64,000 nt of DNA from Sulfitobacter geojensis. GTDB lineage: Bacteria; Pseudomonadota; Alphaproteobacteria; Rhodobacterales; Rhodobacteraceae. A program made the translations under genes and the position numbers. The notes under the pieces are model-generated. The model saw nothing but the letters and a program-made list of their open reading frames with translations. It was not told where the DNA came from and searched no databases. Positions 37,404 to 44,197 of the stretch are shown here, one piece after another (the first letter of the stretch is position 1; each line of letters starts with the position of its first letter). Where the stretch lies: positions 2,852,001 to 2,916,000 of the forward strand of contig NZ_JASE01000005.1 of NCBI RefSeq assembly GCF_000622325.1, given 5' to 3'.

Positions 37404-38648
37404 TTAGGGATACTCACTCTCATTCCGAAACTTTGCAGCACTCTTGAGAATATGAACTTTTCGCACTCTGTCTTTGCGTTCGGTGTCAGCGTCACAAAAT
37501 GACCAGAGTTCATCTAACGATCTGAATTGAAAAGGATTGGAAATAAAGTGCCACATAAACGGGGCTATAAACTCACGCATCTGAAAAGCAACTGTTTCAT
37601 CATCATTGGCCGCAATAGGCTTGCCGTGGGCCACTGAGTTTCGTCTAAACTGCAAATGCCTTCCAAGATCTCGGTGATAATCTGTGTCTCTAAAGAAGCT
37701 TGCTGCACGGCTCACCAATCTATCACTTTTAGTAAAGTTTGGTCCGCCTATCGTTTCAAGCACGCGCCAACCACCCAAAAAGGCCGCTTCTCCATCGGGC
37801 TTACTGAAAGCCTCATAATGCTGCGCAAGTGCGATTTCTGCGGTTTGCTTCCAAGGCAGCTTACTAAGGTTTTCCCTATATTGGACTACAATGCGCAATA
37901 ATTTTGTGACCCTATCAGCAGGAATCCCGGCACGTCGCACTTCTTGAGGCCAGTGATTGAACCAATATTGTTGTGAGCTGAGGGCACCTGAAGGTGAGTG
38001 CACAGTCATATGCGGAGCAATAATACATCGGGCGATTGGCGTACGCGGGTTTTCTGGAATGATAGACCTACCACGATAAAGAAACAGTGAGACTAATCCA
38101 AGATCAGTAGAAATTGCGGCCTCGGCTTGCTCAAACGCATCAGACGCATTGGCAGCGTCGACTGAAACAACTGCTAAAGGTAAGTCACGATACTCCTGTA
38201 AATTTGCTCCATGATCGAAGTTATTCGATCCGACCTGCGACTGCCTATTTCTTCTTACTGATTGCATGAACTGCGAGTTAGAAGTCGGATCAAAATTAAT
38301 CCAAACACCTCTTGATTTACGCTTTCCTACAATAATCTCGCCGCAATCGTGGATCGGGAAAACCACTTTATACTTAGCACGGATCATTTGATTGGAGATG
38401 CGTCTTGCGTCAGTGAGAAAACTTTGTAGCTCAAGGTTTTGTCTAGTTCGGATTGCCTTCTTAACGACAGCCTTCAAGTAAGCTGTGGTTCGGTTTTCCT
38501 CGAAGAGCGCAGTCGCCAAGTAACTTTCATATTCTCTTAGGCCACCGAAACCCCTCGTGGACATCGATCCATCTTCGTTGATGGTACGCGCAGCCGATAT
38601 TTCGCGGAGTGCGTTTTCTATTTGGAATTTGTCCCGAACTCTTAGCAT
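37404..38648 (-). CDS. Accessory protein with HEPN-like motif
   Basis: This is a 414-residue cytoplasmic protein with no signal or membrane segment. The C-terminal quarter reads LGRHLQFRRNSVAHGKPI, in which R336-N-S-V-A-H341 matches the R-x4-H motif of HEPN RNases and the RNxxxHG pattern of ApeA-like domains. The N-terminal half (FLTDARRISNQMIRAKYKVVFPIHDCGEIIVGK) is unassigned. The gene is A+T richer than its neighbours (60-base sample 43% G+C). Its ATG is 9 bases downstream of the thyX stop with no clear ribosome site; a start at M29 is possible. Defence or toxin function is an inference. Confidence 0.7.
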   Translation of the reverse strand: MLRVRDKFQIENALREISAARTINEDGSMSTRGFGGLREYESYLATALFEENRTTAYLKAVVKKAIRTRQNLELQSFLTDARRISNQMIRAKYKVVFPIHDCGEIIVGKRKSRGVWINFDPTSNSQFMQSVRRNRQSQVGSNNFDHGANLQEYRDLPLAVVSVDAANASDAFEQAEAAISTDLGLVSLFLYRGRSIIPENPRTPIARCIIAPHMTVHSPSGALSSQQYWFNHWPQEVRRAGIPADRVTKLLRIVVQYRENLSKLPWKQTAEIALAQHYEAFSKPDGEAAFLGGWRVLETIGGPNFTKSDRLVSRAASFFRDTDYHRDLGRHLQFRRNSVAHGKPIAANDDETVAFQMREFIAPFMWHFISNPFQFRSLDELWSFCDADTERKDRVRKVHILKSAAKFRNESEYP

Positions 38649-38657
38649 AATGGATTT

Positions 38658-39578
38658 CTAGCCAATAACCCCCATAAACTCCCGCCATTCCCCCTTGGAC
38701 ATCCCAGAGGTCTCCTGCGTCACCTCTTCCCCCGCGATCATGCGGCGCACGCAGTCGAGCGCTTTGCCGGACATCGTTGCACCGCCCAGACGGTAATCCT
38801 CGAACGCGCCGTAGGCGGCGGGCACCCAGTCGGCGACGACTTTGCAAATCGCGTCCGCGTAAACCCTTATTTCATACTGTGCATGTTTATCTGCCCGCAG
38901 ACGCAAGAAATGAAACAGGTTATGGAGGTCCACTTTCCAGTACCATTGAGTGTAGATGTTTGACGGCAGGTTCATGCGGGCCAGTTCGCGGGCAAGGCCG
39001 TCTTGCGGCGCGCCGTCGGGGCCATCGGTCGAGATCATGCTTTCGTAGTTGTCATAGGCACGGTTGCTGTCGGATTTCAGGATTTCAAGGACGCGGGCGG
39101 CTTCCGCGCCTTCCAGCACGCCGCCCCTGCCCTGATTGTTCACCACGCTTTGCGCGTTCACATGTTCGGGCGCGGGAATATAGAATTCGCGGTCAAGGAT
39201 CGAATAGCGGGCGGAGTATTCGTTGACGTTGGCGGTACGGTGGCGGATCCACTGGCGGGCGACAAAGACGGGCAGTTTGACGTGCAGTTTGATCTCGCAC
39301 ATCTCGAACGGGGTCGAGTGCCAGTGGCGCATGAGGTAGCGGATCAGCCCCTCGTCATTCTGCACGGATTTGGTGCCCTTGCCGTAGGACACGCGGGCGG
39401 CCTGACAGATGGCAGAATCGTCGCCCATATAGTCGATGACGCGGATGAACCCGTGGTCGAGCACGTCATAGGCGCGGTACAGATGCGCCTCCATCCCCGG
39501 CACGGTGGCGCGCAGGGTTGGCGAGGTCTGCGTGCGCAGTTCGTCGATTTCGGCTTGTTGTTCGGGTGACAGGGGCAT
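38658..39578 (-). CDS. thyX: FAD-dependent thymidylate synthase
   Basis: This is a 306-residue flavin-dependent thymidylate synthase, methylating dUMP with methylenetetrahydrofolate and NADPH. The ThyX signature RHRX7S is present ([15 protein letters not shown]), with [19 protein letters not shown] and [18 protein letters not shown] around the FAD/dUMP site. The family start [15 protein letters not shown] at ATG 39578 has AAGGA upstream. It is slightly longer than the usual 230-270 residues. The HEPN-like gene follows after 9 bases. Confidence 0.95.
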
Positions 39579-39715
39579 GTGCGGCGTCCTTGGAAAAGGG
39601 TCTGGGATTCGGTGACCACTATATCTGGAGGCAGGCAAAGCAGGAACAGCCATATGGGGTGATGTGTCTGGAAAACATATACCGGAGGTTATTCAGCGAT
39701 TTTTGAGCGCAAGCG

Positions 39716-39774: not shown

Positions 39775-40869
39775 ATGAAAATCAATGCAGCGGGGCTTTT
39801 GCTTTGCACGTTTCTTGTTGGGTGCGGCGGCGGCGATGCGCCATTCGGCGAGGGCGCAACGGATTCAGAGACGGATTCAGGGACTGACGGGGGCACCGGC
39901 ACAGGTGGCGACACCGGTGAAGAAACCGGTATCATCCGCGAGGGTTTGCCGCCCGGCACCGCCTCCCCGACACCAAGCTCGCGCATTGTACGTTCGGAAC
40001 CCACCGAAGCCGAAGGCGGCAAGCAGGGCGACGGCTTTGCCACCGGCATCCGCTATGACGGCGACACGGATGTGTTCACTGTCGACGGTCTGGCCTTTGA
40101 CGGCGGCAACCGCTACGCCCGCGGGGAGAATGTCAGCAGTTTGAACGACGACTACGCGGTTTACGAAGCGTTCCAGCAGTTCCCCGACGGTTCGAATGAC
40201 GAATTGATCAACCAGTTCACCCACCGCGCGATTTACGGTGTGAGCCGAAATCTCGACTCTGACGGCAACCCGGCGACGCAGTTCGCGATTGTACGGACAG
40301 GGGCCTACATCCCTTACGGGTTTGGCGGGTTCGTGTATGAGCGTGAAGGTTCAGTTGCCCTGCCTACAAACGGACAGGCCGTTTACCGCGGTAAAAGTGC
40401 CGGTGTGCGGGATTTTGAAGGCGCGGGCGGACTTGAATATGCCACGAGCAATGTGGAAATCGCGATTGATTTCGAAGATTTCAACGACTCCACTGGCGTA
40501 GGCGGTGCCGGCGTGCGCGGGATATTCTCCGACCGTCGCGTTTACGACATTAACGGTCTGGATATCACCGATACTGTGGTCAGCCGTATCAATGCCCAGA
40601 ACGACGCCAGCATCGGCACGATTCCAGATGCGCGGTTCGAAGTGGGTCCCGGCGTGATGGATGCCAACGGCGAAATCATCGGGGAGGTGTTTAGTAACTT
40701 CGTCAACGACGACGGACGGGTTATCGAATACGAAACCGGCAAGTATTACGCGATTGTATCGGGCGATGACGCGAATGAAATCGTGGGTGTTATTGTGGCC
40801 GAAAACACAGCCGAGCTTGATGATATCACTGTGAGAGATACCAGCGGCTTCATCATCTACCGCGACTAG
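39775..40869 (+). CDS. Lipoprotein, probable Slam-dependent surface lipoprotein
   Basis: This is a 364-residue protein with a lipoprotein signal (AAGLLLCTFLVGC, lipobox LVGC with Cys17 acylated). It continues with a Gly/Asp/Thr-rich flexible segment (DSETDSGTDGGTGTGGDTGEETG) and a beta-rich body (TGIRYDGDTDVFTVDGLAFDGGNRY, SVALPTNGQAVYRGKSAGV, and IAIDFEDFNDSTGVG) suggestive of a TbpB-like C-lobe barrel. It is followed 10 bases later by a Slam gene, as Slam substrates usually are. ATG 39775 has AGGCAGG upstream; the longer frame from 39664 lacks the signal peptide. Confidence 0.8.
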   Translation: MKINAAGLLLCTFLVGCGGGDAPFGEGATDSETDSGTDGGTGTGGDTGEETGIIREGLPPGTASPTPSSRIVRSEPTEAEGGKQGDGFATGIRYDGDTDVFTVDGLAFDGGNRYARGENVSSLNDDYAVYEAFQQFPDGSNDELINQFTHRAIYGVSRNLDSDGNPATQFAIVRTGAYIPYGFGGFVYEREGSVALPTNGQAVYRGKSAGVRDFEGAGGLEYATSNVEIAIDFEDFNDSTGVGGAGVRGIFSDRRVYDINGLDITDTVVSRINAQNDASIGTIPDARFEVGPGVMDANGEIIGEVFSNFVNDDGRVIEYETGKYYAIVSGDDANEIVGVIVAENTAELDDITVRDTSGFIIYRD

Positions 40870-40879
40870 GCTTTGTAAA

Positions 40880-42268
40880 ATGGCCTTGCAGAAATTGCAG
40901 CTTTGGGGCGCGACTGTCGCTCTTGGGGGCCTTCTCGCTTTTGGCGGGGGGGCCTTGGCGCAAAGCGTATTGACGGCGGACCAGATGCGCAATGCGGCTG
41001 GTCTAAGCCTGAAAGACGGCAATCCGGTTCAGGCCGAGGCGCTTGCGCAGGCCTTGCTGACGCGTGACGAAAACGATCTGACTGCATTATTGATCCGCGC
41101 CCGTGCGCTGCGCGATCTCGGCCGATTGGACGAGGCGCAGGACATGACGCGCCGCGCGTGGCGACAGGCCGGCAGTGACGCTGACAGATACGCCACGGCG
41201 CTGATCACGGCACAGGTGTTGTCCTCGCAAGGCAAACGCACCCGCGCCCAGCTTTGGTTGCGCCGCGCGGCGCAGCACGCGCCGAATGACGCGCTGCGCC
41301 GGCGTGCGGAACGCGATTTCGGGTATGTGAAGCAGCAAAATCCGTGGAAGACGGATGTGACCTTCACCTTTGCGCCAAATTCCAACATCAACAACGGATC
41401 AGCACGGGATCGGTCGCGGCTGAATTATGCGATCTCCGAAATCCTGTTCGGGGAACCGGTCGAATATGACCTGAACGCCGAAGCACAGGCCATTTCCGGG
41501 CTTGAAGTTGGCGGTTCGCTGCGCAGCCGCTACCGGTTTCACCAAACCCCGATTTCCGCCCATGACGCAAAGGTTGCCCTGTCCTACCGGACCTTCAGCA
41601 TCACCGATGATCTGGGGGCATCTGACGTCAGCGGATCGGACTTTGCCTTTGGCAGCGCGTCTGTCGGGTATGGATACCGCCGGTTTGTGATGGATAAGAA
41701 GGGCGAATTCGCAGCCGATGTCGAAGCGGGTCAAAGCTGGTATGGTGGCAGTCGGTATGCCAGTTTCCTGCGCGGCCAAGCGCAACAATTGCTATATCTG
41801 TCCCCGCGCCAGCAACTGCGGTTCGGCGGTGAGGTCGAGCGGCAGTGGGGGCAAGCGACAGCGGACCGCGATCTGTTCGGCCTGTCCGCCAGTATCACGC
41901 AGGCCTTTGCGTCTGGCAACTCCGGTTTTGCGGGGCTGTATCTGACGACGACCCAATCCGACACTGCGAGTGTGGAATATTCCGAAGTCACGCTGCGCAC
42001 CGGACTGGCACTGCGCCAACCGGTGCTGGGGGCAAAGGTGCAATTTGGCCTTGGTGCCAGTTGGCGCGATTATGATGTCTCGCGCGATTCCCGTGACGGG
42101 CGCCAAGACAGGCGTGTTTTTGCGGATGTGACCGCGACCTTCAAAGACATTGATTATTACGGGTTCAACCCTGCGGTGACCCTGTCCGCGTCGAGCACGG
42201 ATAGCAATGTCGGGCTGTATGATGTGAACCGCGTCGGATTGAACATCGGGATTAAATCGGCGTTTTAG
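40880..42268 (+). CDS. Surface lipoprotein assembly modifier (Slam, DUF560)
   Basis: This is a 462-residue outer-membrane protein. It has a Sec signal (residues 1-28), an N-terminal periplasmic TPR part (residues about 30-150, e.g. LSLKDGNPVQAEALAQALLTRDENDLTALLIRARALRDLGRLDEA), and a C-terminal 14-strand DUF560 barrel with repeated aromatic/Gly strands and a C-terminal Phe (GIKSAF), the BAM recognition signal. Slam proteins move lipoproteins to the cell surface. The lipoprotein gene directly upstream is the expected substrate. Confidence 0.85.
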   Translation: MALQKLQLWGATVALGGLLAFGGGALAQSVLTADQMRNAAGLSLKDGNPVQAEALAQALLTRDENDLTALLIRARALRDLGRLDEAQDMTRRAWRQAGSDADRYATALITAQVLSSQGKRTRAQLWLRRAAQHAPNDALRRRAERDFGYVKQQNPWKTDVTFTFAPNSNINNGSARDRSRLNYAISEILFGEPVEYDLNAEAQAISGLEVGGSLRSRYRFHQTPISAHDAKVALSYRTFSITDDLGASDVSGSDFAFGSASVGYGYRRFVMDKKGEFAADVEAGQSWYGGSRYASFLRGQAQQLLYLSPRQQLRFGGEVERQWGQATADRDLFGLSASITQAFASGNSGFAGLYLTTTQSDTASVEYSEVTLRTGLALRQPVLGAKVQFGLGASWRDYDVSRDSRDGRQDRRVFADVTATFKDIDYYGFNPAVTLSASSTDSNVGLYDVNRVGLNIGIKSAF

Positions 42269-42357: not shown

Positions 42358-42792
42358 ATGCCGATCAAATACCTGCACACGATGGTGCGCGTCAAAGACC
42401 TTGATGCCTCGATCGCCTTTTACAAATTGCTGGGACTGGTGGAGCGTCGCCGTACAGAAAACGAAGGCGGCCGCTTTACGCTGGTGTTTCTGTGCCCTCC
42501 GGGGATGGACGACGGGCACGCCGATGTTGAATTGACCTACAACTGGGATGGCGATGATGCGCTGCCCAGCGACAGCCGCCACTTTGGTCACCTCGCCTAT
42601 ACGGTCGAAAATATTTATGAGATGTGTCAGCACCTTATGGACAACGGCGTGACCATCAACCGTCCCCCGCGCGATGGCAACATGGCGTTTGTGCGCAGCC
42701 CTGACAACATTTCGATCGAGTTGTTGCAAGAAGGCGATGCGCTGGCACCGGCCGAACCCTGGGCCAGCATGGAAAACACCGGTCACTGGTGA
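42358..42792 (+). CDS. gloA: Lactoylglutathione lyase (glyoxalase I)
   Basis: This is a 144-residue glyoxalase I that isomerises the hemithioacetal of methylglyoxal and glutathione. The four metal ligands are His7, Glu58, His78 and Glu121 (HTMVRV, VELTYNWD, FGHLAYTV and ISIELLQ). Length and motifs match GloA. Its stop codon overlaps the start of the DUF1194 gene (GTGA), so it is translationally coupled to it, although a functional relation is not obvious. Confidence 0.92.
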   Translation: MPIKYLHTMVRVKDLDASIAFYKLLGLVERRRTENEGGRFTLVFLCPPGMDDGHADVELTYNWDGDDALPSDSRHFGHLAYTVENIYEMCQHLMDNGVTINRPPRDGNMAFVRSPDNISIELLQEGDALAPAEPWASMENTGHW

Positions 42793-43487
42793 AACCTCTC
42801 GCCGCCCTTGTTACGTTGCTGATGGCCGTATCGGGGGCGGCGGTTGCCGAATGCCGCCTTGCGCTGGTGCTGGCGCTGGATGTGTCGAGTTCGGTTGACC
42901 CCACCGAAGATGCGCTGCAACGCGGCGGTGTGGTGGCGGCACTGACCGCGCCCGAAGTGGCCGAAGCGTTCTTTGCCACCGATCAACACGTCGCCCTCGC
43001 GGTCTATGAATGGTCAGGGCGCGAGCAGCAGGACATCTTGCTGGACTGGACCCTGATCGACGGGCCACATGCCTTGCTTGCTGCCGCAGAAACGGTGGCG
43101 GCGACACGGCGTGGCCATGCGGATTACCCCACAGCAATGGGTCATGCCCTCGGGTTCGGGGTGCGCTTGCTTGAGGCGGCACCGCCTTGCGCGCGCCATA
43201 CGTTGGACATGGCGGGGGACGGGCAAAACAACGAGGGGTTTGGCCCGCAAGATGCCTATAACGCATATCCTTTTGACGAGGTCACGGTGAACGGTTTGGT
43301 CGTGAACGCCGGTGATTTCGAGGGCGAGTTGGGATTGATCCCGTTTTACCGCGCCGAGGTTTTGCACGGGCGCGGTGCATTTTTGGAAATCGCCAACGGG
43401 TTTGCCGATTATGAACGTGCGATGCGGCGCAAGCTGGTGCGCGAGGTCACGCCGGTCGTGATCGGGCGGCTGGACGGGGGAAACTGA
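42789..43487 (+). CDS. DUF1194 exported VWA-like protein (first copy)
   Basis: This is a 232-residue exported protein (signal MKPLAALVTLLMAVSGAAVA). The mature part begins ECRLALVLALDVSSSVD, a MIDAS-like D-x-S-x-S metal site of a von Willebrand A fold; DMAGDGQNNEG supplies the second site. DUF1194 proteins have no established function. It starts at GTG 42789 overlapping the gloA stop, and its stop overlaps the second copy (TGATG). The pair may bind extracellular ligands or partners. Confidence 0.9.
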   Translation: MKPLAALVTLLMAVSGAAVAECRLALVLALDVSSSVDPTEDALQRGGVVAALTAPEVAEAFFATDQHVALAVYEWSGREQQDILLDWTLIDGPHALLAAAETVAATRRGHADYPTAMGHALGFGVRLLEAAPPCARHTLDMAGDGQNNEGFGPQDAYNAYPFDEVTVNGLVVNAGDFEGELGLIPFYRAEVLHGRGAFLEIANGFADYERAMRRKLVREVTPVVIGRLDGGN

Positions 43488-44197
43488 TGATCCGCGCGGC
43501 GGTAATGGCTGCTGCCCTGGCCCTGCTCGCGGGCCCCGTGGTGGCGGAATGCCGGCAGGCGCTGGCACTGGGGCTGGACGTATCGGGATCCGTGGATGCG
43601 CGCGAATACCGGTTGCAGATGGACGGTGTCGCCACGGCGCTGAACGCACAGGAAGTGCGCGAAAAGCTGATGTTGATGCCCGCCGCCCCCGTCAGGGTGA
43701 TGGTGTTCGAATGGTCAGGCCCTGCGGATCAGGCGGTTGTGGTCCCGTGGACGGTGATCGACAGCGCGGCAGCGCTGGACGGGGTGATCGCAGCCCTGCG
43801 GGCGACACAGCGGCGCGATGCCAGCCCCGGCACGGCGTTGGGCGTGGCGATGAGCGAAGGGGAGCGGCACCTGCGTGCGCAAAGCGCGTGCTGGAAACGC
43901 ACGCTGGATCTGTCGGGGGACGGCAAGTCGAACCTTGGCCCGCGCCCGCGCGACATGCGCGCGCGACTGGAGCGCAGCGGGATCACGATCAATGCCTTGG
44001 TGATCGGGGTCAATGACCCTGATATGGGCGATATCCGGCAGGCGGAAATCGCGGAACTCTCGTCCTATTTCCGCGCAGAAGTGGTGCTGGGGCCGGATGC
44101 CTTTGTGCAGACCGCAATCGGGTTTACCGATTACGCGCGGGCGATGACGCAAAAGCTGATCCGCGAGCTGGAGGGGCTGGTGCTGTCCAGACTGTAA
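43487..44197 (+). CDS. DUF1194 exported VWA-like protein (second copy)
   Basis: This is a 236-residue paralogue of the preceding gene with signal MIRAAVMAAALALLAGPVVA, MIDAS-like ALGLDVSGSVD, and DLSGDGKSNLGPRP. It shares the conserved YFRAEVVLGPDAFVQTAIGFTDYARAM block with the first copy (FYRAEVLHGRGAFLEIANGFADYERAM). Tandem duplication is the likely origin. No terminator separates the pair, and a YHS protein gene follows after 79 bases. Confidence 0.9.
   Translation: MIRAAVMAAALALLAGPVVAECRQALALGLDVSGSVDAREYRLQMDGVATALNAQEVREKLMLMPAAPVRVMVFEWSGPADQAVVVPWTVIDSAAALDGVIAALRATQRRDASPGTALGVAMSEGERHLRAQSACWKRTLDLSGDGKSNLGPRPRDMRARLERSGITINALVIGVNDPDMGDIRQAEIAELSSYFRAEVVLGPDAFVQTAIGFTDYARAMTQKLIRELEGLVLSRL

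Follow-up and report, generated by a model that had tools for sequence, protein, structure and literature searches.

A Slam-type exporter and its probable TbpB-fold cargo lipoprotein at a conserved marine locus in Sulfitobacter geojensis

The window analysed here, a stretch of 64,000 nucleotides from Sulfitobacter geojensis (contig NZ_JASE01000005.1), carries two adjacent genes on its forward strand. The first encodes a lipoprotein of 364 residues (39775..40869), characterized here through its sequence, an AlphaFold2 model, Foldseek searches of the PDB and an orthologue alignment, and the second, which begins 10 bp after the lipoprotein stop codon, encodes a 462-residue outer membrane protein of the type XI secretion system (T11SS, also Slam, SlipAM or DUF560) family (40880..42268). 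On the left, the pair is flanked by the conserved gene thyX (38658..39653, reverse strand), whose product, a flavin-dependent thymidylate synthase (Pfam Thy1, 191 bits), lies outside the export system. On the right it is followed by the likewise conserved gene of a glyoxalase-family protein (42358..42792, forward strand; Pfam Glyoxalase), and then by two genes for DUF1194 proteins (42789..43487 and 43487..44197, both forward; 227.6 and 223.5 bits in Pfam), which are neighbours and probably not dedicated components. A 414-residue open reading frame adjoining thyX (37404-38648, reverse strand) has no Pfam or PADLOC match. The PADLOC search returned no match to defence systems, and a scan for promoters and terminators gave no signal above that of shuffled sequences.

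The same syntenic locus has been described in 11 Roseobacteraceae/Rhodobacteraceae as the marine "cluster 3" T11SS (Grossman et al. 2025, Fig. 8), with a gene set composed of thyX, a predicted cargo lipoprotein with an 8-stranded barrel, the T11SS protein, a lactoylglutathione lyase and DUF1194 (PMC12282271). The thyX, glyoxalase and DUF1194 neighbourhood typical of cluster 3 is present at the Sulfitobacter locus, whose nearest relatives are themselves in Sulfitobacter. Nothing essential differs from published examples such as that of Ruegeria pomeroyi, which has the same gene set and likewise lacks a TonB receptor, and the 364 residues of the Sulfitobacter lipoprotein compare with 282-375 for cluster 3 cargo (PMC12282271). 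An earlier, sequence-only reading of this DNA did not recognize that thyX, the glyoxalase gene and the two DUF1194 genes belong to a published conserved locus, and proposed a possible new surface lipoprotein system; the presence of a Slam-type exporter beside a probable cargo stands, but the novelty is not supported, since the five-gene locus is already in print (PMC12282271), and the system is a further, well-supported copy of it. The same reading described Slam systems as known mainly from Neisseria and relatives; homologues in all clades of Proteobacteria were reported in 2017, 52% of those examined adjoining a lipobox gene (Hooda et al. 2017, PMC5449769). What is new here is the near-universal presence of the cargo, the correction of the published entry for strain LMG 23705, the co-occurrence and co-divergence of cargo and exporter, their apparent swap as a pair, and their joint absence at relic loci. 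Experimental tests of T11SS are confined to animal-associated cluster 1 (PMC12282271), and our literature search found no experiments on the marine locus.

The exporter scores 35.6 bits with the Pfam SlipAM model (PF04575, formerly DUF560), whose cut-off is 22, and its N-terminal region matches TPR_19 and TPR_14, both above the Pfam cut-off. The protein is organized into a signal peptide (residues ~1-28), TPR-like helices (33-153), a barrel (156-460) and a C-terminal Phe; this confirms the earlier description of a DUF560 protein with TPR and terminal Phe, 10 bp from a lipoprotein with an acidic linker. The AlphaFold2 model, built with 53 orthologues (pLDDT 88.7, mostly above 90 in the barrel strands), contains seven helices and exactly 14 strands within these limits, in agreement with the Slam architecture of helices and 14 strands described previously (PMC5449769). 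No other SlipAM protein was found in the genome. A match to NCBIfam SctY covered the TPR part only, fell below the cut-off and was discarded. In the exporter alignment (A1), columns ~100-170, which correspond to the end of the TPR region and the first barrel strand (TRAQLWLRRA, APNSNINNGS), show a much stronger conservation than the remainder of the barrel, one that spans the divergent exporter types; the segment could possibly act as a common docking element.

When the exporter model was compared to the PDB with Foldseek, the best matches were BcsC and PelB, with OmpG also retrieved, as TPR-barrel or 14-strand relatives. The TPR and barrel architecture shared with the former two would fit a polysaccharide exporter, a reading that we consider extremely improbable. 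The barrel of BcsC has 16 strands, whereas that of the model has 14; the SlipAM match is above its cut-off, no synthase is present among the adjacent genes examined, and the pairing with a TbpB-fold lipoprotein is constant. Furthermore, no solved Slam structure figures among the 50 PDB matches listed, and the fold library is therefore biased towards BcsC.

The lipoprotein starts with an ATG at 39775 and carries the signal peptide MKINAAGLLLCTFLVGC with the lipobox FLVGC. A type II signal peptide (residues 1-16) precedes Cys17, which is predicted to be lipidated and is invariant across 49 orthologues; an acidic, disordered linker (18-56), a Tyr-rich, beta-rich head (~57-183) and an 8-stranded, TbpB/fHbp-like barrel (~184-364) follow. 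The linker, of Gly/Asp/Glu/Thr character, includes 10 Asp or Glu, 13 Gly and one Arg among its 39 residues, with no Lys, and pLDDT in the AlphaFold2 model stays below 50 up to residue 54. The model, which involved the 49 orthologues, has a mean pLDDT of 82, with values mostly above 95 in the barrel. The earlier reading had suggested structure prediction as a means to look for a TbpB-like barrel; the best 28 PDB matches retrieved with Foldseek for the barrel are all TbpB, fHbp, hemophilin or NHBA (E 1e-6 to 1e-3, probability 1.0), all of which are known Slam/T11SS cargo. TM-scores of the whole chain against TbpB and fHbp are, however, moderate (0.2-0.65).

Sequence models perform less well on this protein, which falls below the Pfam cut-offs for TbpB_B_D and FHBP_C (for the latter, 17.1 bits against 28.1, E 0.01) and is left unclassified by Pfam, NCBIfam and PDB sequence searches; among the orthologues, matches at E <= 0.1 are limited to 1/49 for TbpB_B_D and 17/49 for FHBP_C. 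The missed cut-offs reflect the limited sensitivity of sequence models; the literature defines cargo by its fold rather than by such matches, and the modelled barrel has that fold. With the lipoprotein as a query, a viral structure library yielded no significant match, and no paralogue was found in the genome.

The arrangement resembles that of the Neisseria pairs Slam1/TbpB and Slam2/HpuA, where a TPR and 14-strand SlipAM protein is likewise associated with a protein that has a lipobox and an 8-stranded barrel; the Sulfitobacter pair differs from these in its marine host and in the lack of an adjacent TonB receptor, and whereas TbpB has two lobes, the Sulfitobacter protein has one head and barrel unit. 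A single head with an 8-stranded barrel is also the layout of the Slam-linked hemophilin HphA from Acinetobacter baumannii (PDB 7re4, among the matches obtained for the lipoprotein). HphA is secreted, binds haem and has a TonB partner, in contrast to the Sulfitobacter protein, which is predicted to be lipidated, has no invariant His and has no TonB receptor nearby.

The association between the two genes was followed across 110 loci. In all of them (30/30 congeneric, 80/80 named), the gene immediately before that of the exporter encodes a lipoprotein, a recurrence that is therefore not due to chance. Among the 80 named loci, 75 display a complete cargo reading frame with a lipobox, three run into the end of a contig, one (L072) contains an in-frame stop and in one (L104) the start is unclear. 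The stop of L072, in Pseudooceanicola antarcticus (L072:4983-5831 and upstream), occurs soon after the lipobox and denotes either a pseudogene or a sequencing error. In a sample of ~396 genomes of the family, mostly one per genus, 156 carry both genes, 3 the cargo only, 53 the exporter only and 184 neither, which corresponds to an odds ratio of 181, these being counts that ignore phylogeny. Eighteen of the exporter-only loci were read, 15 of them canonical, and at 13 of these 15 a diverged cargo had been missed by the screen; the true coupling is therefore tighter than the screen counts indicate. No cargo was found at two sampled exporter loci (L124 and L125), absences in genome searches being provisional. 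The SlipAM proteins of L119, L122 and L128 lie outside the thyX-glyoxalase locus and have no obvious lipoprotein gene upstream. A canonical locus practically always contains the cargo.

In the published account, cargo was held to be rare at cluster 3, with 0.21 cargo per exporter, and Pseudooceanicola marinus LMG 23705 was listed without a cargo gene (PMC12282271). In that genome (contig NZ_PGTC01000010.1), an intact cargo reading frame lies upstream of the exporter (L062:4749-5777), with the lipobox VSGC, a TbpB-like barrel region and the end ETGGFILYR. The figure of 0.21 most likely reflects the use of insensitive sequence models.

Cargo and exporter have also diverged in concert: with thyX and glyoxalase regressed out, their pairwise distances display a partial r of 0.65 over 62 loci and 0.69 over 56 loci (permutation p 0.001). 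Lower values are obtained when DUF1194 is compared to the exporter (0.41) or to the cargo (0.34). These figures bear on the possibility that the lipoprotein is an ordinary periplasmic lipoprotein of the outer membrane and that the exporter serves other cargo, such as the DUF1194 proteins, which were proposed as cargo in cluster 3, where DUF1194 occurs at 102/145 loci (PMC12282271). The DUF1194 genes are indeed located two and three genes downstream of the exporter and show some excess co-occurrence with it (odds ratio 2.4), in addition to the co-divergence given above, but coupling between cargo and exporter is far stronger by both measures. Moreover, genomes with a DUF1194 relative (E <= 1e-40) make up 65% of the exporter-positive and still 43% of the exporter-negative set, DUF1194 genes persist in two congeners in which the exporter has decayed (G013 and G025), and the lipoprotein itself has the cargo barrel fold. 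Since TbpB-fold cargo is found at nearly every canonical locus, there is little need to invoke an unusual cargo such as DUF1194. We regard an ordinary periplasmic lipoprotein beside an exporter of other cargo as decidedly unlikely; the DUF1194 proteins are more likely neighbours than dedicated cargo, possibly with a partial link to the system.

That the lipoprotein and the exporter form a unit is also suggested by their fate within the genus. The exporters of 12 congeneric genomes are just 30-34% identical to that of S. geojensis, and at the divergent-type congeneric loci examined the cargo shows 26-30% identity beside a glyoxalase of 82-92%. In trees, thyX from Sulfitobacter EhC04 (L110) groups with Sulfitobacter, while cargo and exporter of this strain both lie on long branches set apart from the remaining sequences. 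Cargo and exporter appear, from these identities and trees, to have been swapped as a pair within Sulfitobacter. In G013 (L138:4068-4233) and G025 (L139:6328-6447), C-terminal relics of the exporter, closest to the divergent Sulfitobacter type, stand directly before the glyoxalase gene; at both loci DUF1194 is intact and no cargo is detectable. The thyX gene stays in place after loss of the exporter (G013), and glyoxalase is retained where exporter and cargo have been lost. In G234 (L131:4931-6018), no exporter was detected and the cargo reading frame is interrupted; G346 (L130:5146-6228), in which the cargo is apparently intact with no exporter detected, is an exception to the pairing. G020, whose contig begins at the glyoxalase gene, was left out of the comparison of losses.

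The fold kinship with TbpB and hemophilin evokes the question of iron or haem piracy, in which a module of the TbpAB or hemophilin type would bind an iron carrier or haem and pass its load to a distant TonB receptor. The conserved Tyr residues of the head could ligate iron or haem; however, none of the His, Met or Trp residues of the mature protein is invariant in the 49 orthologues, the conserved residues being mainly Tyr, Arg, Gly and Asp. As the sequence-only reading had stated, no TonB receptor is adjacent: the genome search gave a single TonB Plug-domain match, 1.78 Mb from the locus. In addition, cluster 3 T11SS show no enrichment of haem or iron genes in their surroundings (PMC12282271), and free-living marine bacteria are unlikely to encounter transferrin. 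TonB-coupled nutrient piracy is, in our view, unlikely. A binding role uncoupled from TonB is favoured because of the single plug match and the lack of an invariant His, and our guess is that the head binds a surface, a glycan or a partner protein rather than serving in TonB-coupled acquisition of metal or haem. Across genera the head (57-183) matches the barrel in its degree of conservation, and an arms race acting on it is therefore unlikely.

Gene anatomy, predicted folds, the membership of the exporter in the SlipAM family and the tight evolutionary coupling of the pair make it highly probable that lipoprotein and exporter constitute a type XI secretion (Slam) system, in which the exporter places the TbpB-fold lipoprotein on the cell surface and the head binds something outside. 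By analogy with the Slam literature (PMC7857515), from which the transport steps and surface display are drawn, the lipoprotein would be exported by Sec and then lipidated at Cys17, and the Lol pathway would bring it to the outer membrane. There, the TPR and 14-strand barrel protein would recognize the C-terminal 8-stranded barrel of the cargo and move the lipoprotein across the outer membrane, generating a lipid-anchored surface protein, with a flexible acidic tether bearing a conserved head that could bind an external partner.

TbpB-fold cargo thus exists at nearly every canonical marine locus, where it was overlooked by sequence models. The locus provides a pair that can be tested simply, in a marine environmental genus where two divergent cargo-exporter types allow specificity swaps. 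More tentatively, and at somewhat less than even odds, the marine cluster 3 pairs might form a distinct functional class: their surface lipoprotein, nearly universal, independent of TonB and iron and equipped with a conserved Tyr-rich head, would be maintained by free-living Roseobacteraceae, among which matched cassettes of cargo and exporter would be exchanged, with the specificity of the exporter co-evolving with its cargo.
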